NCBI GenBank assembly: GCA_012523465.1
Contig: JAAYIK010000013.1
Location: 124,001 to 188,000, forward strand
Source: Lysobacteraceae bacterium
GTDB lineage: Bacteria > Pseudomonadota > Gammaproteobacteria > Nitrococcales > AK92
DNA length: 64,000 bases
Direction of reading: 5' to 3'
Position numbers and translations under genes: made by a program
The notes under the pieces: model-generated
The model's input: the letters and a program-made list of their open reading frames with translations, nothing else
The model's database searches: none
What the model was told of the DNA's origin: nothing
Part shown: positions 5,340-59,770 of the stretch, piece by piece
Layout: each line of letters opens with the position of its first letter
How positions within the stretch are numbered: the first letter of the stretch is position 1

Positions 5340-7421
<2,082 letters not shown>

Positions 7422-7454
7422 GGCTGCCGTCCAATCACGCAGTGGAGCATTGCC

Positions 7455-8639
<1,185 letters not shown>

Positions 8640-8666
8640 GCGCAACGGCAACGAGAGGGTAGATAG

Positions 8667-9863
8667 ATGGAACTGCACTACAGCCCCGAAGAGCAGGCCT
8701 TTCGGGAAGAAGTGCGGCAGTTTCTGCGCGAGAAGCTGCCGCCCGATATCGCCGCCAAGGTTAAGGGCAACAAGCGCCTTTCCCGGGACGATTACGTTCG
8801 CTGGCACAAGATCTTGGGCGAAAAGGGCTGGCTGGCACAGCACTGGCCTGTGGAGTACGGCGGCACCGGCTGGAGCCCGATCCAGCGGCACATCTTCGAT
8901 GAAGAGGCGGCCGCCGCCGGTGCGCCAGGCATCATTCCGTTTGGCGTATCGATGGTGGCGCCTGTCATCATCCGGTTCGGCAGCGAGGAGCAGAAACGCT
9001 ACTACCTGCCGCGCATCCTTAACAGCGAGGACTGGTGGTGTCAGGGCTACTCCGAGCCAGGCGCCGGCTCCGACCTGGCTTCGCTGAAGACCCGTGCGGT
9101 GCGCGAAGGCGACTACTACATCGTCAATGGGCAGAAGACCTGGACCACGCTGGGCCAGTACGCCAACATGATGTTCTGCCTGGTGCGCACCAATACCGAG
9201 GTCAAGCCGCAGGAAGGCATCTCCTTCCTGCTGATCGACATGAACTCCCCGGGCGTCACGGTACGGCCCATCATCACCCTCGATGGCGAGCACGAAGTCA
9301 ACGAGGTGTTCCTCGAGAACGTCAAGGTTCCGGTCGAGAACCTGGTCGGCGAAGAGAACAAGGGCTGGACCTACGCCAAGTACCTGCTTACCTACGAGCG
9401 CACCGGCATCGCCGGCGTGGGGATTGCCAAGCAGGCGCTGCGGCACCTGAAGTACGTCGCTTCCAAGCAGCTCAAGGACGGCCGGCCACTGATCGAAGAT
9501 CCGCTGTTCCGTGCCCGCATCGCCGCCGTCGAGATCGACCTGATGGCGCTGGAGCTGACCAACCTGCGGGTGGTGGCGGCGGCGGAGAAGGGCGGCGTGC
9601 CCGGCCCCGAGAGCTCGGTCCTCAAAATCAAGGGCACCGAGATCCGGCAGGCGATCACCGACCTGCTGCGACGCGCCGTCGGCCCGTACGCGCTGCCCTT
9701 CATCCCCGAGGCGCTGGATGCCGACTACGACGACGAGCCGGTGGGTCCGGACTATGCGGCCGGGCTGGCTGCGCAGTACTTCAACCGCCGCAAGATCACC
9801 ATCTACGGCGGCTCCAACGAAATTCAGAAGAACATCATCGCCAAGATGATTCTCGGACTCTAG
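8667..9863 (+). CDS. Acyl-CoA dehydrogenase (first of an adjacent pair)
   Basis: 398-residue flavin-dependent acyl-CoA dehydrogenase. The N-terminal helical domain includes LAQHWPVEYGGTGWSP, the flavin-binding segment is GYSEPGAGSDLASLKTRA, and the C terminus is RKITIYGGSNEIQKNII, typical of the subunit that binds the flavin adenine part. It would form the trans-2 double bond. The second dehydrogenase starts 12 bp downstream. Such adjacent, different-length pairs are known to form heteromeric enzymes for bulky acyl-CoAs, for example in steroid and branched substrates. Confidence 0.93.
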   Translation: MELHYSPEEQAFREEVRQFLREKLPPDIAAKVKGNKRLSRDDYVRWHKILGEKGWLAQHWPVEYGGTGWSPIQRHIFDEEAAAAGAPGIIPFGVSMVAPVIIRFGSEEQKRYYLPRILNSEDWWCQGYSEPGAGSDLASLKTRAVREGDYYIVNGQKTWTTLGQYANMMFCLVRTNTEVKPQEGISFLLIDMNSPGVTVRPIITLDGEHEVNEVFLENVKVPVENLVGEENKGWTYAKYLLTYERTGIAGVGIAKQALRHLKYVASKQLKDGRPLIEDPLFRARIAAVEIDLMALELTNLRVVAAAEKGGVPGPESSVLKIKGTEIRQAITDLLRRAVGPYALPFIPEALDADYDDEPVGPDYAAGLAAQYFNRRKITIYGGSNEIQKNIIAKMILGL

Positions 9864-18088: not shown

Positions 18089-19342
18089 TCAGTTGAAGCC
18101 GACCAGCGGCTCGATGTTGACCCAGTCCTGAGGCTGCAACTCGTAGGCGCCTTCCGGCAGAACGATGAAGCAGTTGGCCTCGCTCATCGAGCGCAGCACG
18201 CCAGAGCTCTGGTTGCCGGTGGGGCGCACCGTAATGGTGCCGTCGCTGCTGACGGTCATGACGCCGCGCTGGAATTCAAGGCGCGGGTCCCGCTTGACGA
18301 TGGGGCGCTCCAGGCGGGCGCGCAGCTGCAGGCGCGGCGTCGGCGTCTTGCCTTCCAGACACTCCAGGGCCGGCATGACGATTTGGTAGAACGTCACCAT
18401 CACCGACACCGGGTTGCCGGGCAGGCCGAAGAAGACCGCCGATCCCATGCGGCCGAAGGCCAGCGGCCGGCCCGGGCGCGTATGCAGTCGCCAGAAGCCG
18501 ATGCTGCCATGCTCGGCCAGCAGGCCGGTGATGTAGTCGGCTTCGCCGACCGACACGCCGCCGGAGGTGATAACGACGTCGGCTGCGGCGCTTGCCTGCC
18601 GCAGCGCCTGATGCAGCCGCTCGGGCTGGTCCGGGACCACGCCGAAGTCCAGCACCTCAGCCCCGTACCGTTGCAGCATACCGTGCAAGGTGTAGCGGTT
18701 GCTGTCGTAGATTTGCCCCGGCGCCAGCGTCTCGCCGGGGAGGCGCAGCTCGTCGCCGGTGGACAGGATGGCGACCCGCAGCGGCCGCCGCACGTCGACC
18801 TCGGCGATGCCAAGGGAGGCCAGCAGCCCGAGGTCGGCCGGTCCAAGCCGATGCCCGGCCGGCAGCACCAGGTCACCTGCCCGCAAGTCTTCGCCGCGCC
18901 GACGAATGTAGCTGCCCGGCACGTGCTGGCCGTCGACCCAGACCAGGTCGCCTTCCCGTCGCACCTGCTCCTGCATGACCACGGTGTCGGCGCCGTCCGG
19001 CACGACGGCGCCGGTCATGATCCGCACGCACTGGCCGGGAGCCACGGTGCCGGAAAACATCCGGCCGGCGAAAGCCGAACCGATGACGCGTAATGGCTGT
19101 CCAGTCTGCAGGTCGGCATGCCGCACGGCATAGCCGTCCATCGCCGAGTTGTCATGGCCGGGGACGTCCAGCGTGGCATGCACGGGCTTCGCCAGCACCC
19201 GCCCGAGAGCGGCGGTAAGTGACAGGCGCTGGCGATCGGCGCAGGGCTGGAGCTCGCGGCGGATGATCGCCAACGCCTCGGTCAGTGAAAGCTGGCGCTT
19301 CCCTTGACCGCAAATCACGGACTCTTCAGGTCTGAGGGCCAA
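18089..19342 (-). CDS. moeA: Molybdopterin molybdenumtransferase MoeA
   Basis: About 417 residues. MoeA inserts molybdate into adenylylated molybdopterin. Motifs are GHDNSAMDGYAVR, the MTGAVVPDGADTVV segment, STGDEL, TSGGVSVGEADYI and FGLPGNPVSVMVTF. No ATG fits; TTG 19342 is chosen because GAGAGGAGAGGAA lies just before it, while the frame's first possible start, TTG 19384, has no ribosome site. It is the first gene of the co-directional moeA-moaA-moaD-moaE set. Confidence 0.93.
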   Translation of the reverse strand: MALRPEESVICGQGKRQLSLTEALAIIRRELQPCADRQRLSLTAALGRVLAKPVHATLDVPGHDNSAMDGYAVRHADLQTGQPLRVIGSAFAGRMFSGTVAPGQCVRIMTGAVVPDGADTVVMQEQVRREGDLVWVDGQHVPGSYIRRRGEDLRAGDLVLPAGHRLGPADLGLLASLGIAEVDVRRPLRVAILSTGDELRLPGETLAPGQIYDSNRYTLHGMLQRYGAEVLDFGVVPDQPERLHQALRQASAAADVVITSGGVSVGEADYITGLLAEHGSIGFWRLHTRPGRPLAFGRMGSAVFFGLPGNPVSVMVTFYQIVMPALECLEGKTPTPRLQLRARLERPIVKRDPRLEFQRGVMTVSSDGTITVRPTGNQSSGVLRSMSEANCFIVLPEGAYELQPQDWVNIEPLVGFN

Positions 19343-19812
19343 GGAATTCCTCTCCTCTCTGGCGGGCCGTGCAACCGAGTGCAAAGCCTGGTGCGTTGTC
19401 TTGGCTTGAGCCCGATTATACCCCAGCCATGCCCCGCAGCTGGGAAGCCGGCTCAGCCCCCCTGGGCGATTCCCGTAAGCACGGCCGGGGCGTGCTCCGC
19501 ACTGCGGAGCACCGTCCGACTCGCCGTTTTTAGCGTGTTTCGGTGTGTTTCTTTCATTATCGCCGGGCGAGTGAAAGTCTCAAATGGACTTGGCGGCGAC
19601 ACGTTGGCAACGCCATGCCGAGGCTCTCGTTTGCTGGGCGTTTCGTCCCTATCTGAAAAACAAGGACGACAACAGCGTGCCGGCAACAAGCGCCAGGAGC
19701 AGGCAAGCAGCGGCTGGCGCACGCAGGCAAGAAACCGGGTGAAGTGGTTTTCGCAAGTGCCTCTGTGTCATGCATAACGCGACCGGCTTGCCCAAACGGA
19801 GGAGGTGGCGTA
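19343..19812. other. Intergenic region with one perfect hairpin and a -10 element
   Basis: About 470 bp between the divergent moeA and PRPP-synthetase-like genes. A minus-strand TATAAT (19415-19420) fits a moeA promoter although its -35 is poor. A perfect 9-bp inverted repeat with a 3-base loop lies at 19492-19512 (GTGCTCCGC / GCGGAGCAC). GGAGGAGG precedes the start at 19813. No credible reading frame is seen in the rest. Confidence 0.5.
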
Positions 19813-47427: not shown

Positions 47428-48552
47428 TTAGCGCCAGTGCATCTCCAGCGCGCCGTCCGACGCAAGCTGCGTTTCGGCGCCGAACGGCTGGCTAGCTTTG
47501 CGCAGCCGTGTCGCCAGCCATTCGGCATCGGTCGGGCATGCGCGCCGCAGACGGAACTGCCTGATCTGGAGCGGTGTCATTGCCAGCGCGAGCAGCCGGC
47601 CATCCCTTGGGTCGAGTTCCGGCCAGTAGGCCAGGCACAGATCGCTGCGGAACACTTCGTAGCCGCTAATGCCTTCGTAGTCGTTGATGAAATCGCCGCA
47701 GCCGTACAAGATTAGCCGCTCCCGATGGACTTCCAGTGGGCGAGGGTGGTGCGACGAGTGACCGTGCAGCAAGTCCACCCCGGCATGGTCGATCAGCGCG
47801 TGGGCGAACCGACGGTGCTCGCGCGCAACGGCATAACCCCAGTTGTCGCCCCAGTGGATGGATGCGACCACCAGATCGCCCAAGCGCCTGACGGCATCGA
47901 TCCGGCGAGCGATGCACTCGACGGTCGTAATGGTGAAATCCGGCAGCAGATTGACGCCCGCGTGTCCGGGACTCGCCGTCCAGGTTTCGGGAATGCCGCT
48001 ATCGCGGGCCCCAAACGCGAACACCAGCAGTCGCCCGCCGCTGCACAGCGGAAATACGGCCGGCCGTGCCGCGGCCTCATCGTCCTCGCCGGCTCCAACT
48101 GTCGCAATGCCCGCGCCGTGAAGGCTTGCCAGCGTCTCGCGCAGGCCTGCATACCCCCAGTCGAGCACATGATTGTTAGCGAGCGCACAACAGTTGATGC
48201 CGGCGGCGGCAAGGCAGGGCAGGTTGGCCGGCTGCATGCGGTAGTGGATGCCCTTGCCGGACCAGGGCGCATCGCTCGTGGTGACGGCAGTCTCCAGATT
48301 CACCAGCCGCAGCCACGGCGTGCGCTGCTCGAGCTCCGCCAGCGCATCGCCCCAGACATAGTCGAAGCCTACACCGCGCGGCATCGCGCCTTGCCGTCGT
48401 TCCGCCATGGCGACGTAAGCGCTGGCGTCGTGCACGTACTCTTCGAACAGTCGGGGATCGCTGGGGTGAGGCAGAATCTGGTCGATGCCGCGCCCCAGCA
48501 TCACGTCTCCACACAGGAACAGGCGCACCGCTTCGGCATCCTGGCTACGCAT
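47428..48552 (-). CDS. CapA-family protein (poly-gamma-glutamate-type metallophosphatase fold)
   Basis: 374 residues from ATG 48552 (MRSQDAEAVRLFLCGDVMLGRGID). The metallophosphatase-like CapA/PgsA ligands are visible: GDVMLGRG, NLETAV, ALANNHVLDWG, SIHWGDNWGY and HGHSSHHPRPLEV. No signal peptide or membrane anchor is present, unlike classical CapA. A poly-glutamate capsule is not implied because capBC are absent; family function outside Firmicutes is poorly known. The gap 47151-47427 downstream holds no credible gene. Confidence 0.85.
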   Translation of the reverse strand: MRSQDAEAVRLFLCGDVMLGRGIDQILPHPSDPRLFEEYVHDASAYVAMAERRQGAMPRGVGFDYVWGDALAELEQRTPWLRLVNLETAVTTSDAPWSGKGIHYRMQPANLPCLAAAGINCCALANNHVLDWGYAGLRETLASLHGAGIATVGAGEDDEAAARPAVFPLCSGGRLLVFAFGARDSGIPETWTASPGHAGVNLLPDFTITTVECIARRIDAVRRLGDLVVASIHWGDNWGYAVAREHRRFAHALIDHAGVDLLHGHSSHHPRPLEVHRERLILYGCGDFINDYEGISGYEVFRSDLCLAYWPELDPRDGRLLALAMTPLQIRQFRLRRACPTDAEWLATRLRKASQPFGAETQLASDGALEMHWR

Positions 48553-48664
48553 TTCCCCGGCTCTCCCTGCAAGCAATTCTCACGGGAAGGATAGGGGTGG
48601 TCGCGATGGTCCGAAGCGGCAGGCTTGGTTATGTACATTGGGGACGCTATCCCTTGGTTGTTAT

Positions 48665-49422: not shown

Positions 49423-50067
49423 ATGCCGCGACCTGTTCTCTACGTGCTCGCGGGCACCAACGGCGCTGGCAAAAGCTCGGTGGGCGGGCATCTGCTGCGA
49501 CAGGCTGGCTTGAACTGGTTCAACCCGGACGCCTTCGCCCGCGAGCTGGTCGCGGAACTGGGCTGCGCCCAGGAAGAAGCCAACGCCATTGCCTGGCAGG
49601 AGGGCATGCGGCGCCTGGACGCAGCCTTGAGGGAGGGACGGAATTACGCCTTCGAGACCACGCTGGGCGGGCGCAGCGTGCCTGCGCGCATCAAGGCTGC
49701 GACGGAAACGCATGACGTCCTGATCTGGTTTTGCGGACTCTCTTCCCCCGAACAGCACATCGCCCGCGTGCGCGCCAGAGTGGCCAGAGGAGGGCACGAC
49801 ATACCTGCGGATCTTATCCGCCGCCGCTACCGTCTGGCGCAAGAGAACCTGATCGCTCTCATGCCTTATCTTGCCGGCCTGCAGATTTACGACAACAGCA
49901 GGGAAGCCGAGCCCGGCGAGCCTATCCCCGATCCGCTCTTGCTAGCCCAGATGGAAGGCGGCCACCTCGTCTGGCCAACCGCTCCCGAAGAGCTGAGGAA
50001 AACGCCCGACTGGGCCAAGCCGCTGCTGGAAGCGGCCTTGTCGCTGGGGCTGGGCTTGAAACCGTAA
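49423..50067 (+). CDS. Zeta-toxin-like P-loop kinase
   Basis: 214 residues. Walker A is AGTNGAGKSSVGG, followed by NWFNPDAFARELV (Asp of the zeta family), YAFETTLGG and later VRARVARGGHDIPADLIRRRY, with conserved Arg residues for phosphate transfer. Zeta toxins phosphorylate UDP-sugars of peptidoglycan synthesis and block wall growth. COG4185-type proteins share this fold and some may act on other substrates. The partner here is Phd-like rather than an epsilon protein. Confidence 0.85.
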   Translation: MPRPVLYVLAGTNGAGKSSVGGHLLRQAGLNWFNPDAFARELVAELGCAQEEANAIAWQEGMRRLDAALREGRNYAFETTLGGRSVPARIKAATETHDVLIWFCGLSSPEQHIARVRARVARGGHDIPADLIRRRYRLAQENLIALMPYLAGLQIYDNSREAEPGEPIPDPLLLAQMEGGHLVWPTAPEELRKTPDWAKPLLEAALSLGLGLKP

Positions 50068-50633: not shown

Positions 50634-50990
50634 ATGGCAAAGGGGCGGCGCGGACCGGCTGACTTCGGTGACCATCTTGACTACGCACACCTGAAAGGAA
50701 CAGATCGTCAGGAGTATGGGCCGATCGTCACCATGTTAATGGACATGGAGGGATCGACCCGTCTGGGCGTATTGCTGAAACTGGAAGCGCTTTTCGCCTA
50801 CTTTGGTGCGCCAGCTTATCTCAAGAGAGATAACGGCCCGGAGTTCGTGGCAGAGACCGTGCGGAAGTGGCTCGCACAAAAGGGCGTGCAGACACACTAC
50901 ATCGCCCCTGGAAGCCCATAGCAAAATGGGCACAACGAGAGCTTCAACGGCATTTCCGCGATGGCTGCTTGAACCGCTAGTGGTTCAGTT
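50634..50990 (+). mobile_element. IS3-family transposase remnant (DDE integrase core end)
   Basis: The segment EALFAYFGAPAYLKRDNGPEFVAETVRKWLAQKGVQTHYIAPGSP is the second half of an rve/DDE core (the second Asp in RDNGPEF). The reading continues QNGHNESFNG, the classic IS3 sequence after the expected Trp, but that Trp codon is TAG here (50919-50921). Upstream residues lack the first catalytic Asp region, and the sequence after NESFNG decays within about 50 bp. No terminal repeats are found. It is inactive. Confidence 0.8.
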
Positions 50991-51231: not shown

Positions 51232-52338
51232 TCAGATGCGGCCAAGTGTGCCGCTGCCGTCATGGACATCGGTCGCTGCACTCGCCTGCCTCGTCGGCCT
51301 TCTGCTTGACAGAGCAAGCCCCAATGGACGCTCCACGACGTAATAAGTACAGAAAGCGGCGATACATGATCCAACGGTAACGGCGAACATGTAAGCGTCC
51401 GCAGGTAGGATCTCCTCCAGTCCGACAAGCCGCCAGGCCTTGGCGACAGCCGGCAGCAGGAAAAGGTGCGTGAGATAGAGCGAATAGGAGGCATCACCGA
51501 GTGCCACCGTCAGGCGACGCCAGGGGGCTAGCCTGCCCTCAGGCGTTGAGGCAACGCTGCTGCAGCGACGAGCAGCATCGCCGGGACTCCCCAGATCAGA
51601 GTCCGCCCCATCCAGCCGACATCGAACAGTATCGATCCGCTAAATAGCAAGATCGCTGCGGCGGCCAGCAGGTGCGGCAACCAAGCGGGTCGGGAGCGGA
51701 CTTGCAAGTACAGGCGCGCGACGAAGCAACCAAACACGAACTCGAAGACGACAGGGTTGGCAAGCCAAGTGAGGACTCTGTTCTCGGGCACCAGCCACTC
51801 GACGGCGGCAATGTAGCAGGCAAACACAAGCGCGAGTGCCGGCACTATGCGCTCAACTCGAAGTGACAGGAGGGCTGCAAAGATCGCATAGAAGAGCATC
51901 TCGAATGTCAGCGTCCAGCCTGGAACCAGCAGCGGCCGAATGATGTCCTGGCTGTCCGAGTACGGAATGAGCAAGTAGGACGCCATCGCGTGCACGGGAT
52001 CCAGGTGGGAGCCCGAAAACAGTCCGGGAAGCAGGAGCATCAGACCTATCAACACCGTGGTCAGCAGCCAGTAGAGCGGCACGATGCGCTTGATGCGCTT
52101 TATCAGGAAACCGTGCCAGGTCATCGGCGCCCGTCGTTGCGACAGCCTGTACATCATGATTGAAGCCGCTGATGACGAAGAAGATGTCGACGCCAGCATT
52201 GCCGAACAGGCGGAACTGGCCGAACTCCGCCAGTGCACTCGTTCCGAGGTCATATTGGTGGATGGTGCTGAAGGCGTGTTGGACAACGACTAGTAAGGCA
52301 GCGAACGCTCTCAGTTCCTGAACTGCTAATAAGCGCAC
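51232..52338 (-). pseudogene. Acyltransferase-3 (OafA/YrhL type) gene with two frameshifts
   Basis: The pieces assemble into one membrane O-acyltransferase: MRLLAVQELRAFAALLVVVQHAF up to VDIFFVISGF (frame from 52338), then MMYRLSQRRAPMTWHGFLIKRIKRIVPLYWLLTT and following membrane spans in a second frame, then ALGDASYSLYLTHLFLLPAVAKAW in a third. The first break is an extra A near 52155 (TTCAATCATG), the second lies near 51525-51535. The family adds acetyl or other acyl groups to surface polysaccharides. It is likely inactive unless the breaks are sequencing errors. Confidence 0.8.
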
Positions 52339-55080: not shown

Positions 55081-57312
55081 ATGCAGCCATGGACGCAGGC
55101 ATCTGCCAAGTCGCGGCCGAATCTTGAGCTGAGCGAATTGCTTCGCTCCGTTCTAGCGGAGCCACATGATGACTTCACAACGCTTGCTGCGCTCGCTCTT
55201 CTTGCCCCCGAGACGGCAGCGCGCTGGCTGCTTGAGCGCCAGGACCAGGTTTGCGGCAGCTTGTCCCGGCTACAGCTACAAGAGCTGCTCGCCCAGCTTC
55301 TTGCCGGCGCCGCGGTGCCACCGCCACTGTTGCTGCGCCTGGGTCATGCCTATTTCGACCTGCTGCCGGAACGGGCCAGCGCTGGCCTCCTCGAGCGGTT
55401 GCTGCCGGAGCCGGATGCCGAACGCTTGCTGGAGCGGCTGCTGCAGCGCTTTCCTAACAGCGCCGAGCTGCTGCGGTTGGCTGCGCTGCAGGCAGTGCAG
55501 CGCCGGGATACCGCCAGCGCTCATGCTCTGCTGAATCGCTGGGGGCAGGCCGACATGCGGCTGGCCACCCTGAGCCGGATCTCCAGGCTGCGAGCGACGC
55601 TGCCGCGAATTGTCGACAAAACGGTCCGCATCGCGCTCGCCAGCAGTTACACCATCGACCCGCTCGTCCCCTACCTGGAGCAGGAATGCGCATTGCTGGG
55701 CTTGGCACCGACGTTCTATCAGTCGCCATTCAATGCCTGGACCCAGGATGCCGTCGCTGACGACTCGCCTCTACTGGCCTTCCGGCCCGACATTGTTTTC
55801 TTCGCGTTGGCGCTGGACGATCTGGTCCCGGAACTGGCGGCAGCACCGACAGCTGCCGAGTTGGAGCAGCTGGGAGAACAAGCGCTGCAGCGCGTGCTCT
55901 ATGCTGTGACCAGCTGCGTTGAGCGATGCGATGCGTTGGTCGTGGTGCACGGCTTTTTCTCCAGCTATCGCGACCCCCAAGGGATAGCCGGCGTCTCGGG
56001 CTTCAGATCAGCCTGGATTTCGCAGCTCAATGCCCGGCTGGCCGAAGCTCTGGCTCCGCTGCGCCGCGCCCGGCTGCTTGATATGCAGGATCTCTTGCTG
56101 CGCCGTGCCGGCGGGACGCTGGAGAACGCCAAGCTACGCCATTATGCCGCCATGCGCTTGGGCGAGACTGCCCTGGCCGAAGTGGCGCGAGCTAGCGCCG
56201 GCTATATCGCCGCCCTGAAGGGGCTGACCCGCAAATGCGTCGTTCTCGACCTCGACAACACGCTCTGGGGCGGCGTCGTGGGTGAGGACGGACCGTATGG
56301 GATCAAGCTTGGCAATGCTTCCCCGGGATCGGAATACCTTGAGTTCCAGCGCTTCCTGCTGGCCTTGAGCGAGCGCGGCGTGCTGTTGGCCATCAATTCC
56401 AAGAACAATCCGGACGATGCCCTGGCCGCGCTGCGCGACAATCCCTGGATGGTGCTGCGGGAAGAGGCCTTCAGTGCCATTGCCATCAACTGGGACTCCA
56501 AGCCCGACAACATGCGGCGCATTGCAAGCGAGCTGAACATCGGCCTAGATGCGCTGATCTTCGTTGACGACAATCCGCACGAGCGAGAACTCATGCGGCA
56601 AGCCCTGCCGGACGTGCTGACCGTCGATCTGCCGACCGATCCTGCGCTTTACCGCAGCACCCTGGAGACCCTGCCCCAGCTGCAAGCCCTGGAGGTCACC
56701 GAGGAAGATCGCAAGCGCACCGAGCTCTACCGCGGCAACCGGCAGCGCCGCGCCGTTCTGACCGGGGCAGGATCGCTGGACGACTACTTCCGTTCGCTCG
56801 ATCTGCAGGTGCGCATCGAAGAGCCCGTCCCGGAGCAGGCCCTGCCGCGAATCCAGCAACTGTTCCAGCGCACCAACCAATTCAACCTCACGACCCGACG
56901 GCATGGGGGCGAGGCGCTGTGTCACGCCAATGCCGACCCCGGGCAGCGGCTCTACGGCCTTTCGGCTTGGGACCGCTTCGGCGATCACGGACTGGTCGCT
57001 GCTGCCCTGGTACGCGCGGAAGGCGAGCCCTGGCGGATCGACAGCTTTCTGATGAGCTGTCGGGTGATCGGCCTTGGCATCGAAACGGCGCTGCTGGCTC
57101 GAATCTGCAACGACGCAAAGGCGGCCGGCTGCCGACACGTGCTCGGCGAGCTCGTCCCTTCCGCCAAAAACCGGCCAGCCCAGGACCTCTATCGTCGGCA
57201 CGGCTTCGAGCTGTACCGGCAAGAAGGCGACCTGCAGCTGTGGGCGCTGGACCTGCGGCAGCGATCGGTGCCTCAACCCGCATGGATAAGCGTCACTGGA
57301 GAGCCGGCATGA
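55081..57312 (+). CDS. FkbH-like HAD-IIIC protein (predicted glyceryl-ACP-forming)
   Basis: 743 residues. The N-terminal 180 residues are Leu/Ala-rich helices, followed by a region (about 180-370) like the SGNH-type front half of FkbH proteins. The HAD core begins at CVVLDLDNTLWGG (DLDNT at 390-394), with INSKNNPDDA, NWDSKPDNMRRI and the acidic motif VDDNPHE (495-501). A GNAT-like C-terminal half follows (about 560-743, IDSFLMSCRVIGLGIETALLA). FkbH enzymes dephosphorylate 1,3-bisphosphoglycerate while loading glyceryl onto an acyl carrier protein. The acyl carrier gene overlaps its stop (ATGA), strong support for this reading. Confidence 0.88.
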   Translation: MQPWTQASAKSRPNLELSELLRSVLAEPHDDFTTLAALALLAPETAARWLLERQDQVCGSLSRLQLQELLAQLLAGAAVPPPLLLRLGHAYFDLLPERASAGLLERLLPEPDAERLLERLLQRFPNSAELLRLAALQAVQRRDTASAHALLNRWGQADMRLATLSRISRLRATLPRIVDKTVRIALASSYTIDPLVPYLEQECALLGLAPTFYQSPFNAWTQDAVADDSPLLAFRPDIVFFALALDDLVPELAAAPTAAELEQLGEQALQRVLYAVTSCVERCDALVVVHGFFSSYRDPQGIAGVSGFRSAWISQLNARLAEALAPLRRARLLDMQDLLLRRAGGTLENAKLRHYAAMRLGETALAEVARASAGYIAALKGLTRKCVVLDLDNTLWGGVVGEDGPYGIKLGNASPGSEYLEFQRFLLALSERGVLLAINSKNNPDDALAALRDNPWMVLREEAFSAIAINWDSKPDNMRRIASELNIGLDALIFVDDNPHERELMRQALPDVLTVDLPTDPALYRSTLETLPQLQALEVTEEDRKRTELYRGNRQRRAVLTGAGSLDDYFRSLDLQVRIEEPVPEQALPRIQQLFQRTNQFNLTTRRHGGEALCHANADPGQRLYGLSAWDRFGDHGLVAAALVRAEGEPWRIDSFLMSCRVIGLGIETALLARICNDAKAAGCRHVLGELVPSAKNRPAQDLYRRHGFELYRQEGDLQLWALDLRQRSVPQPAWISVTGEPA

Positions 57313-57536
57313 GCGATCTGGAACGCATCATCGCCCGCGTTTTCGGGTTGCCGGAGTCGCAGGTTGACGACGACACCTCGAATCAAACCATCCCGAACTG
57401 GGACTCCATGGGGCACATGACGCTGGTCATGGAGCTGGAGTCAGCTTACGGCGTGTCCCTGTCCATCGACGAGGTGCTGATGATGACCGACGTGGCCAGC
57501 ATCAGGCGTATTCTATGCAGGCACGGGGTGCATTGA
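57309..57536 (+). CDS. Acyl carrier protein
   Basis: 75 residues from ATG 57309, overlapping the FkbH stop by four bases. The phosphopantetheine site is Ser33 in PNWDSMGHMTLVMELESAYGVSLS. It is acidic overall, as usual. Because it is separate from fatty-acid genes and coupled to FkbH, it most likely carries a glyceryl-type unit. It overlaps the next start by one base. Confidence 0.92.
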   Translation: MSDLERIIARVFGLPESQVDDDTSNQTIPNWDSMGHMTLVMELESAYGVSLSIDEVLMMTDVASIRRILCRHGVH

Positions 57537-58675
57537 TGACGAGGCATGACACGAAGCGCCTGCCCGCTGCTGCAACGGGGGTGGTTCGGGTGGACGAGGC
57601 GCATCTGGAACTCCTGACGGAGCTGATTCGGCTGGCCTGGTCGCCCGCTGCCAGCGTCGAGCACGTCCGCCAGGCCCGCCGCGCCGCGGCTGCGGTCAAC
57701 CCGCACGGCCAGGGCGAGGAGGTGCCGACCTTTTTGTTCATGGCGGATGGGCGCGCACTGGGGCATCTGACGACGATTCCCGTTGTGCTCTGGGCGGATG
57801 GTCGCGAACATCGGGCTTACTGGTTCAAGGGATTCTGGGTCAGGCCTGAGCATCGCAACGGCCCGGTCGGCTTCCTGCTGTTGAAGGAGGCGATGCGTCA
57901 CCTAGAGGCCAGCCTGTCGATGGTGGTGCAGCCAGCGCCGCGGCGGCTCTTTGCCGCCTTTGGCCTGCGCGATTTGGGCGTGATCCCGAACTACGTCCGT
58001 CTGCTGAACCCGGCCGGCGTGCTGCAACGCTTGGACCGCTCGGGCCATGGCATCGTTCCGGCCTGGCTCGCCAGGCTCGCCAGCCAGCGGCTCTGCGCCA
58101 AGGCAGCTGGTGCTGCCGCTGGACTCGCACTCAAGGCCTGGACCCTCCCCCAGCCATCGGCGCGGCGAGCCGCGCTCGAGCCAGTCGCCGGGCTCGACCC
58201 GGATGCCGTGGATCGACTTTGGCGGCACAACCGCGACCGGCTGCTGCTGGCGCCAAGCAGCGATCATGCCCACCTCAGGGCGCGCTACATCGGCAAGAGG
58301 GACATCTACCAGGCGGTCACCTTGCAAGATCCGCGGCTTGGCTTCGCCATTCTTCGTCGCCCACGACAGACGGGCGATCGGCGGTTGGGTAACGTCCGCC
58401 TAGCCACCCTCGCCGATCTGTTCTATCCCCTCGACCAGCCCCGGCTGGGGTTGCGGCTGCTGGCCGCTGCCGAGCAGATGGCGCGCGAGCTCGGGGCCGA
58501 TGCCCTGCTCTGTAGCAGCAGCCATCGTGCCTTGCGCCCTTTGTTGCGGCGGCGCGGCTACGTCCCGCTCGGCGGCAACGTGCATTTCATGGCCCGCGGC
58601 GACGGAATAGCGGCCATCGACCTAGCCGACTGCTGGTTGCTACGCGGCGACGGTGAGGCCGATGACGCGCTCTAG
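57536..58675 (+). CDS. GNAT-like acyltransferase of the FkbH operon
   Basis: 379 residues from ATG 57536, which shares one base with the ACP stop. The N-terminal half has a GNAT core with AYWFKGFWVRPEHRNGPVGFLLLKEA (the RNGPVG phosphate-loop motif). The C-terminal half carries a second GNAT-like part (ALLCSSSHRALRPLLRRRGYVPLGG). GNAT enzymes normally use acetyl-CoA, but some accept acyl-ACP. Genomic coupling to ACP suggests it transfers the ACP-bound group to an amino or hydroxyl acceptor; this is inference. Confidence 0.8.
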   Translation: MTRHDTKRLPAAATGVVRVDEAHLELLTELIRLAWSPAASVEHVRQARRAAAAVNPHGQGEEVPTFLFMADGRALGHLTTIPVVLWADGREHRAYWFKGFWVRPEHRNGPVGFLLLKEAMRHLEASLSMVVQPAPRRLFAAFGLRDLGVIPNYVRLLNPAGVLQRLDRSGHGIVPAWLARLASQRLCAKAAGAAAGLALKAWTLPQPSARRAALEPVAGLDPDAVDRLWRHNRDRLLLAPSSDHAHLRARYIGKRDIYQAVTLQDPRLGFAILRRPRQTGDRRLGNVRLATLADLFYPLDQPRLGLRLLAAAEQMARELGADALLCSSSHRALRPLLRRRGYVPLGGNVHFMARGDGIAAIDLADCWLLRGDGEADDAL

Positions 58676-58708
58676 ACCAAACGGATTGCCAGTGACAGGA
58701 GGCGAAGA

Positions 58709-59770
58709 ATGAAAGTCCATGCCGACCAGGCGGCTTCCGCAGCTTCCGGGCAAGAAACCTCCACGGCGCCTCCCGAGCCCGAGCGCTGGCCGCAGGGAAA
58801 GCGATTCGCCTTCTCCATCATCGACGATACCGATGTCGCGACCGTAGCCAATGTCCGTCCCATCTACCGCCTGCTCGAACGGCTTGGACTGCGGGCGACC
58901 AAGACGGTATGGCCGGTTTCCTGCCCGGAGGGCAGTCGTCACTTCGCTGGTTCGCAAACCCTGGACGATCCCGACTATCTGGACTTCGTTCAGGACCTGC
59001 AGCGGCGCGGTTTCGAGATCGCCTTCCATGGCGCCACCATGGAAAGCAGCACCCGTGAGCGAACCTGCCGGGCCTTGGAGCGCTTCAAGGAATGCTTCGG
59101 CAGCTATCCTCGCGTCCACGCCAATCACGGCTGCAATCGGGAAAACATCTACTGGGGGAGAAGCCGTATCGATCAGCCCTTGATCAAGTGGATTTATGGC
59201 CGTGCCATTGGCGTCCCGGACGGTTACTACGCCGGCCACATTCCTGGCTCGGCCTACTGGTGGCGCGATCTGTGTCAAAGCCGCATCGAGTACGTGCGCA
59301 ACCTCACCTTCAATTCGCTCGATCTGTCGCGCATTAATCCAGGCATGCCCTATGCGGACCGCACGCGCCCGCTGGTCAGGCGTTGGTTCTCGGCGGCCGA
59401 TGCCGAGAGCGCCGACGAGTTCGTGCGCCTGCTAGACAGCCGCAATCAGAAAGCGCTGGAGGCCAACCAGGGCTTTGCGATCGTCGCCACGCACTTTGGC
59501 AAGAACTTCGTCGTCGATGGCCAGGTCGATCCCAGGGTGCAGGAACTGCTGGAGGAGCTGAGCAGCAGAAACGGCTGGTTTTGCACGGTCAGCGAGCTAT
59601 TGGACTGGTTGCGCGCACGCCAGGCTTCTCCCGAGCTGTCGGAGCGGGAATGGCGGCGGATACAGCGGATTTGGCTGCTTAACCTGCTGTCACGCAGGCT
59701 GACAGCCAAGTGGACCAAGCTCCGCCAACGCCTGCCGATCGCGGCAAGCCCGCTGCCGAGCACACGCTAA
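58709..59770 (+). CDS. Polysaccharide-deacetylase-like protein, atypical metal motif
   Basis: 353 residues; GGAGG precedes the ATG. FAFSIIDDTDVATVANVRPIYRLLERLGLRATKTVWPV matches the first (Asp) motif of the NodB/carbohydrate-esterase 4 fold. The usual H-x3-4-H motif is not clear: the matching places read FEIAFHGATMESSTRE and RVHANHGCNRENIYWG. No signal peptide is present. It may remove acetyl from a nucleotide-linked or lipid-linked sugar in the cytoplasm, or be a divergent hydrolase. It is last in the four-gene operon, 33 bp after the acyltransferase. Confidence 0.72.
   Translation: MKVHADQAASAASGQETSTAPPEPERWPQGKRFAFSIIDDTDVATVANVRPIYRLLERLGLRATKTVWPVSCPEGSRHFAGSQTLDDPDYLDFVQDLQRRGFEIAFHGATMESSTRERTCRALERFKECFGSYPRVHANHGCNRENIYWGRSRIDQPLIKWIYGRAIGVPDGYYAGHIPGSAYWWRDLCQSRIEYVRNLTFNSLDLSRINPGMPYADRTRPLVRRWFSAADAESADEFVRLLDSRNQKALEANQGFAIVATHFGKNFVVDGQVDPRVQELLEELSSRNGWFCTVSELLDWLRARQASPELSEREWRRIQRIWLLNLLSRRLTAKWTKLRQRLPIAASPLPSTR

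Follow-up and report, generated by a model that had tools for sequence, protein, structure and literature searches.

FkbH-like proteins and stand-alone acyl carrier proteins (ACPs) are common to the tetronate and methoxymalonyl-ACP pathways (PMC7489565). In those pathways, exemplified by Mad7/Mad8 and Mad14/Mad12, glyceryl-ACP is passed to a FabH-like enzyme or is oxidized and methylated for a polyketide synthase. The window, meaning the whole 64,000-nucleotide stretch analyzed here, encodes the same pair, but its partners are a GNAT-like protein and a deacetylase-like protein, with no polyketide synthase. What, then, might a glyceryl-ACP be made for in this organism? The first-pass annotation offered one reading, in which the deacetylase exposes an amine on a sugar and the GNAT protein attaches the glyceryl group from the ACP.

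An intact operon beside decayed DNA

Four intact, tightly packed genes had been described on one strand at 55081-59770, and all coordinates, overlaps and the 33 bp gap agree with our analysis. The operon and its flank contain the following features:

47428..48576, - strand: CapA/PGA_cap-like gene, ~7 kb upstream of the operon (PF09587, E 1.3e-79)
50634..50921, + strand: transposase/integrase-core fragment in the decayed flank (PF00665 rve, E 2e-7; truncated ORF)
51528..52338, - strand: acyltransferase-3 (OafA-like) remnant in the flank, outside the operon (PF01757 matches in two overlapping frames)
55081..57312, + strand: FkbH-like gene, 743 aa, without internal stop
57309..57536, + strand: stand-alone ACP gene, 75 aa; ATGA common to the end of the FkbH-like gene
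57536..58675, + strand: GNAT-like gene, 379 aa; its ATG begins on the last base (57536) of the ACP stop codon TGA
58691..58708, + strand: ribosome-binding site region, from sequence, containing AGGAGG, before the deacetylase-like ATG
58709..59770, + strand: deacetylase-like gene, 353 aa; 33 bp gap after the GNAT-like gene

The operon does adjoin decayed DNA, as had been claimed: the integrase-core fragment and the frame-broken acyltransferase-3 gene lie to its left, and GC content is 54-56% at 52-55 kb, compared with 64.5% for the whole window. No homologue of the GNAT-like protein was found in 58 relatives of the host. Together with the adjoining IS and broken acyltransferase remnants, this absence upholds the earlier suggestion of acquisition, and the cassette looks acquired in this host. 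With the GNAT-like protein alone as the query, there was no match in close-relative genome contigs and none in plasmids, indicating that this protein is too divergent for a single-sequence search.

The operon sits outside any glycan cluster. NeuB (PF03102) has no match anywhere in the host genome, so the cassette may be stranded. A gene set that is real elsewhere could survive here as a nonfunctional or barely functional relic of a glycan island that has otherwise decayed, a history that would fit the IS fragment, the broken acyltransferase, the GC dip, the missing GNAT homologues among relatives and the lack of NeuB. However, the four frames are intact and closely spaced, the ribosome-binding site is good, and the genome retains polysaccharide clusters with glycosyltransferases. 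We consider a relic fairly unlikely.

The four predicted proteins

In a profile search, the FkbH-like protein matches TIGR01686 (E 1.6e-89; 300 bits against a cut-off of 146.65). It comprises an N-terminal extension, a middle domain, a HAD-IIIC domain (LDLDNTLWGG) and a C-terminal GNAT-like part (TNQFNLT and an SCR motif). D390, D392, N599-Q600-F601 and C660 are invariant in 11 homologues, and the HAD DxD and TNQFN motifs are intact. Judged by profile and motifs, it is a member of the FkbH family, whose chemistry loads glyceryl from D-1,3-bisphosphoglycerate on an ACP. The second protein matches PF00550 (27.4 bits against a cut-off of 20.8); Ser33, in a W-D-S-M motif, is the phosphopantetheine site, and W31 and S33 are invariant in 10 FkbH-linked ACPs. 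On the combined evidence of profile and serine, its sequence is that of an acyl carrier protein.

The third protein matches PF00583 in its N-terminal half only (24.6 bits against a cut-off of 20.7), and its structural model (pLDDT 78.5) has two GNAT halves that superpose over the whole length on N-myristoyltransferase (NMT; Z 22.4, 317 residues aligned, rmsd 4.7). What had been called a two-part GNAT-like transferase is thus modeled as a double-GNAT protein with an NMT-like fold, and profile and fold together make it a member of the GNAT superfamily. It resembles eukaryotic NMTs in its whole double-GNAT architecture but differs in sequence (identity 9-16%) and presumably in partner, an ACP instead of CoA. 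Because there are no NMT families among its Pfam matches at E up to 1, we do not file it as an NMT. NMTs are acyl-to-amine transferases that acylate N-terminal glycine, and the NMT-like fold fits acyl-to-amine transfer by the window protein. Guided by the model, we propose that it may be a glyceroyl-ACP:amine N-acyltransferase.

The same likeness could point to a different acceptor. Glyceroyl-ACP might be used by the NMT-like protein on a peptide, a protein N-terminus, an amino acid or a lipid amine, with the deacetylase-like protein serving another step, and the absence of NeuB from the host would suit such a role. In most relatives, however, the GNAT accompanies a polysaccharide deacetylase and glycan genes, and the deacetylase-like protein has its own relatives in glycan clusters, making an acceptor of this kind unlikely.

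The fourth protein had been described as an atypical carbohydrate deacetylase, and its predicted fold and unusual sequence fit that description. Its only match in a Pfam profile search is DUF2334, under the cut-off (19.7 against 26 bits). The predicted core resembles polysaccharide deacetylases, most closely 3rxz (Z 14.0, 199 residues aligned), in a model with a mean pLDDT of only 55.8. With CE4/NodB enzymes (3rxz, PdaC, ArnD and WbmS 3hft) it shares this predicted core fold, the D-D motif and the first metal histidine, and D39, D40, H107, H140, H177 and H262 are invariant in 3 homologues. Unlike them, it falls below the PF01522 cut-off (no match for the window protein, a sub-threshold one for one relative), lacks the second histidine of the H-x3-H metal motif (H107-G-A-T-M111), and has low-confidence middle and C-terminal parts. 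CE4 pseudoenzymes exist. A CapA-like gene lies near both other relatives of this protein (L062 and L201), as in the window, and the relative in G731 lies within a glycan cluster, adjoining a FemAB-like acyltransferase.

Recurrence and neighbors of the gene set

One Gemmatimonadota chromosome has relatives of all four window proteins (FkbH 51%, GNAT 48% and deacetylase 58% identical), and their arrangement together in another phylum excludes a chance set. In the closest relative, L062, which is the only match to the window's exact protein types, all four are conserved among glycosyltransferases and CapA. Functionally equivalent sets, in which the deacetylase is of the canonical type, occur in Acidobacteriota, Desulfarculus, another Gemmatimonadetes, Omnitrophota, a gammaproteobacterium and three other Pseudomonadota genomes, with a gene order that is shuffled among phyla (deacetylase-ACP-like-FkbH-GNAT in G424, G427 and G430). 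Glycan genes, namely NeuB, UDP-GlcNAc 2-epimerase and glycosyltransferases, are the neighbors of these sets, and at two loci (L049 and L082) the four genes lie together with NeuB. The first-pass annotation had suggested searching for the set and its conserved neighbors across genomes; it recurs in several phyla beside amino-sugar and glycan genes. Its expectation that the proteins act together is borne out by this recurring functional module of FkbH, ACP, GNAT and deacetylase.

Starting from FkbH, we found an ACP within 300 bp at 72 of 92 loci. Within 5 kb on the same strand, the window-family GNAT was present at 10 of the 92, the deacetylase at 8 and both at 7, in HMM counts that include the profile-building sequences. 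A circularity-free search with the window GNAT alone gave four matches, all in FkbH loci. Starting from the GNAT, FkbH lay within 5 kb in 5 of 20 fetched places, and several family members occur in places without FkbH or ACP. NeuB was found at 10 of the 92 FkbH loci.

Sharing FkbH and an ACP with tetronate and methoxymalonyl-ACP pathways might mark the operon as a fragment of such a polyketide pathway. Against this, the operon contains no FkbH-partner dehydrogenases, O-methyltransferase or FabH-like enzyme, and the ketosynthases of the host genome amount to two FabB/FabF-sized matches and weak thiolase-type ones. No polyketide synthase lies near the operon, as had been noted, and none was found in the genome. 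The relatives, too, lie outside polyketide clusters, with a ketosynthase at only 1 of the 92 FkbH loci; the reading in the first-pass annotation would have failed had homologous operons always sat inside such clusters, and they do not. We therefore reject a polyketide fragment as highly improbable.

L062 also has a second ACP and GNAT set, which is accompanied by a LarA-like 2-hydroxyacid racemase and, in place of FkbH, an AMP-ligase; the GNAT and ACP pair therefore seems to serve different acyl sources. Related ACP and GNAT sets in L181, L185 and L195 have no FkbH in sight, and MaoC-like proteins are often found nearby. The acyl group in the window could accordingly be something other than glyceryl, either loaded by FkbH or drawn by the ACP and GNAT from elsewhere. 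However, the window operon has no AMP-ligase and the motifs of its FkbH are intact, and we regard another acyl group as distinctly unlikely.

A profile comparison of the window deacetylase-like protein with the canonical PF01522 cassette deacetylases gave no meaningful match, and we therefore treat the two as different subfamilies of one fold; a MAFFT alignment of the two types was untrustworthy and was left out of the analysis. This difference in subfamily speaks against an exchange of acetyl for glyceroyl, as do the incomplete H-x3-H motif, the single match (L062) to the window's exact protein types, the host's lack of NeuB, the position of the operon outside a glycan cluster and the occurrence of several GNATs without FkbH or ACP.

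A candidate acyl exchange on surface sugars

With somewhat better than even confidence, we read the operon as a cassette for N-acyl exchange on a surface sugar, taking acetyl off and putting glyceroyl on. Following the family's chemistry, FkbH would take D-1,3-bisphosphoglycerate, remove the phosphate and attach glyceryl to its dedicated ACP through phosphopantetheine. The CE4-fold protein, judging from its fold and neighbors, would deacetylate an amino sugar of a glycan polymer or its precursor, and the double-GNAT protein would transfer glyceroyl from the ACP to the amine so exposed. The location of relatives beside nonulosonate genes points to pseudaminic/legionaminic-type sugars as one acceptor class; in this host, which has no NeuB, the target would be another amino sugar of an envelope polysaccharide. 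The reading first offered for this operon thus gains strong comparative support, and we infer every chemical step.

N-glyceroyl pseudaminic acid is known from Tannerella forsythia (Pse5Am7Gra), where the responsible gene has been called "elusive" and is unassigned in published work (PMC6120980, PMC6388019). N-glyceroyl on a diamino sugar is the predicted product type of the cassette, which offers a defined four-gene candidate for this step on bacterial pseudaminic acids. Our literature search found no paper pairing FkbH with O-antigen, and none joining FkbH, acyl carrier protein, glyceryl and polysaccharide. We give about an even chance to the broader claim of a previously undescribed, cross-phylum cassette for de-N-acetylation and re-N-glyceroylation, in which a bacterial enzyme with an NMT fold transfers a glycolytic intermediate from a dedicated ACP to an amino sugar, and which would be a candidate gene set for N-glyceroyl on nonulosonic and other surface sugars. 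If true, the claim would take FkbH/glyceryl-ACP chemistry beyond polyketides to surface glycans and would introduce a family of ACP-linked acyltransferases built on an NMT fold.

The flagellin glycosylation locus of Campylobacter jejuni (cj1295-cj1302 region), which serves a nonulosonate glycan, likewise contains an fkbH-domain gene, and the glycan carries a glyceric acid derivative (PMC7099621). The dimethylglyceric acid there is attached to Pse5Ac7Ac, which gives no indication of an acetyl exchange, and that study shows gene function for cj1295 only and no deacetylase pairing. In strain 12664, the fkbH-domain gene cj1302 is a pseudogene and the dimethylglyceric-acid pseudaminic acid is absent; the glycan is also absent from strain 12661, but that strain is reported without cj1301, not cj1302 (PMC7099621), making the correlation between cj1302 and the glycan a loose one. 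For the glyceroyl and dimethylglyceric-acid steps in such glycans, the cassette provides a candidate that can be tested.

Gene content and host genome

All four genes are intact, lie on the same strand and occupy the positions that the first-pass annotation had assigned. Their junctions also agree with it: an ATGA overlap at 57309-57312, base 57536 in common, and 33 bp before the fourth gene. The operon lies next to decayed DNA:

left of operon, decayed flank: transposase-core fragment
left of operon, decayed flank: acyltransferase-3 gene, split between two frames
55081-57312, plus strand: FkbH
57309-57536, plus strand: ACP
57536-58675, plus strand: GNAT
58709-59770, plus strand: deacetylase-like (fourth) protein

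In profile searches, FkbH matched TIGR01686 (1.6e-89), the ACP passed the PF00550 cut-off with its serine kept, the GNAT passed PF00583 in its N-terminal half only, and the sole family match of the fourth protein was DUF2334, below threshold. By the known chemistry of the family, FkbH and an ACP together would yield glyceryl-ACP. This origin of glyceryl-ACP is the accepted proposal for the tetronate and methoxymalonyl pathways (PMC7489565). The earlier remark that no polyketide synthase is nearby holds for the whole 3.0 Mb host genome (the window is its contig 1, 124001-188000), since the ketosynthase matches there are FabB/FabF-sized or weak and thiolase-type. The genome has polysaccharide clusters containing many glycosyltransferases, and the nonulosonate synthase marker NeuB was not found in it.

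No homologue of the GNAT occurs in 58 further genomes from the host's order or class, and no strong one among 368 other genomes of the class. GC is 54-56% in the stretch with the transposase-core fragment and split acyltransferase-3, and GC3 is 76-83% in the operon versus 82-88% in seven host genes. Together with the decayed left flank, these values fit the acquisition suggested at first pass. A Zeta-toxin/AAA_33-like kinase gene (49423-50067) borders the decayed stretch.

Recurrence of the gene set

We collected FkbH homologues from the host's class and across GTDB genomes; the four-gene search proposed earlier finds the set in several phyla, with glycan genes as neighbours. The nearest FkbH locus, on a Gemmatimonadota chromosome (L062), has FkbH (51% identical), ACP and GNAT (48%) in direct succession, followed by a VanZ-like gene, a window-type deacetylase-like protein (58%) and a canonical deacetylase, with glycosyltransferases and a CapA-like protein further out. 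Upstream (5656-9680), another GNAT of the family and another ACP accompany a LarA-like racemase and an AMP-ligase, perhaps a sister cassette applying the same transfer chemistry to another 2-hydroxyacyl group. Beyond L062, the cassette deacetylase is canonical (PF01522). The order FkbH-ACP-GNAT-deacetylase recurs in Paludibaculum (L082), Desulfarculus (L123) and a gammaproteobacterium (L049); NeuB is also present in L049 and L082, and UDP-GlcNAc 2-epimerase in L082. An Omnitrophota locus (L060) reads FkbH-ACP-deacetylase-GNAT, and another Gemmatimonadetes locus (L112) reads ACP-MaoC-GNAT-FkbH-deacetylase, with genes resembling, by eye, the amidotransferase/HisH/HisF trio for acetamidino groups (one fragment had no profile match).

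Across 92 FkbH loci, a set skewed to the nearest relatives of the window's FkbH, an ACP lies within 300 bp in 72; a same-strand family GNAT lies within 5 kb in 10, a deacetylase in 8 and both in 7. A ketosynthase occurs in one locus. NeuB occurs in 10, against about 0.5 expected from a rough density of one per 4 Mb genome, an expectation that is merely indicative because the loci are not independent.

Searching 398 genomes of the phylum with a GNAT alignment avoids conditioning on FkbH. FkbH lay within 5 kb of the GNAT in 5 of the 20 match regions fetched, although no more than about 8% of the class's genomes have any FkbH match. Three of the five read deacetylase, ACP-like, FkbH, GNAT and, since all belong to a single genome family, do not count as independent; their ACP-like proteins were called by size, position and DSL motif, and the one checked fell below the PF00550 cut-off. 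Three further regions have an adjoining ACP without FkbH. Still others lack both, which makes the GNAT family broader than the cassette.

Predicted folds and proposed transfer

Both folds are assigned by prediction. The GNAT, first described as two-part, is modelled as a tandem GNAT (mean pLDDT 78.5) whose superposition on N-myristoyltransferases covers almost the entire chain (317 residues, Z 22.4; Foldseek E 1.5e-13). Profile searches found no N-myristoyltransferase family match for it, and it is thus NMT-like rather than an NMT. The weaker model of the fourth protein (mean pLDDT 55.8) has a core matching polysaccharide deacetylases (Z 14.0), in keeping with the atypical deacetylase originally claimed. 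Three homologues agree at Asp39, Asp40, His107, His140, His177 and His262, but another residue stands where the H-x3-H motif usually has its second His, making deacetylase activity plausible rather than proven. The third homologue, from a distant Pseudomonadota genome, sits in a glycan cluster adjoining a FemAB-like acyltransferase. In each of the three contexts known for the deacetylase-like protein, a CapA/PGA_cap-like gene is located no more than about 12 kb away:

window, 47428-48576: CapA/PGA_cap-like gene
L062, 18481-19704: CapA/PGA_cap-like gene
L201 (homologue locus), 18622-19779: CapA/PGA_cap-like gene

In the proposed mechanism, an amino sugar, the presumed acceptor, would be deacetylated and glyceroyl would be transferred to the freed amine. 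N-glyceroyl pseudaminic acid is known from Tannerella forsythia, where published work calls the responsible gene 'elusive' (PMC6120980; PMC6388019), and a dimethylglyceric-acid form decorates the flagellin of C. jejuni 11168 (PMC7099621). The latter sugar is absent from strain 12664, whose cj1302, the gene with the fkbH domain, is a pseudogene, and likewise from strain 12661, reported without cj1301 (PMC7099621). The most serious doubts come from the fourth protein's atypical metal motif and from the host's operon having no recognisable acceptor pathway beside it.

FkbH-ACP pairs in other settings

Thaumarchaeal FkbH and ACP pairs (L064, L065, L083) have a NeuB-type gene no further than about 10 kb away, which suggests that the glycan link reaches archaea. 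Bathyarchaeal and Asgard MAG contigs (L052, 80-2637; L053, 8949-11488) carry a holo-ACP synthase-like gene (PF01648, E 1.4e-16 in L052), FkbH and ACP consecutively, and further pairs occur in L054-L057. To our knowledge, ACP systems are usually absent from archaea, and these contigs may be mis-binned.

MaoC-like hot-dog proteins often adjoin FkbH-ACP or FkbH-ACP-GNAT sets (L047, L095, L112, L182, L188). Bacteroidales also have FkbH-ACP loci (L106, L127, L128); in L106, ketoacyl-synthase-III-like and SDR genes take the place of the GNAT, another use of the pair.
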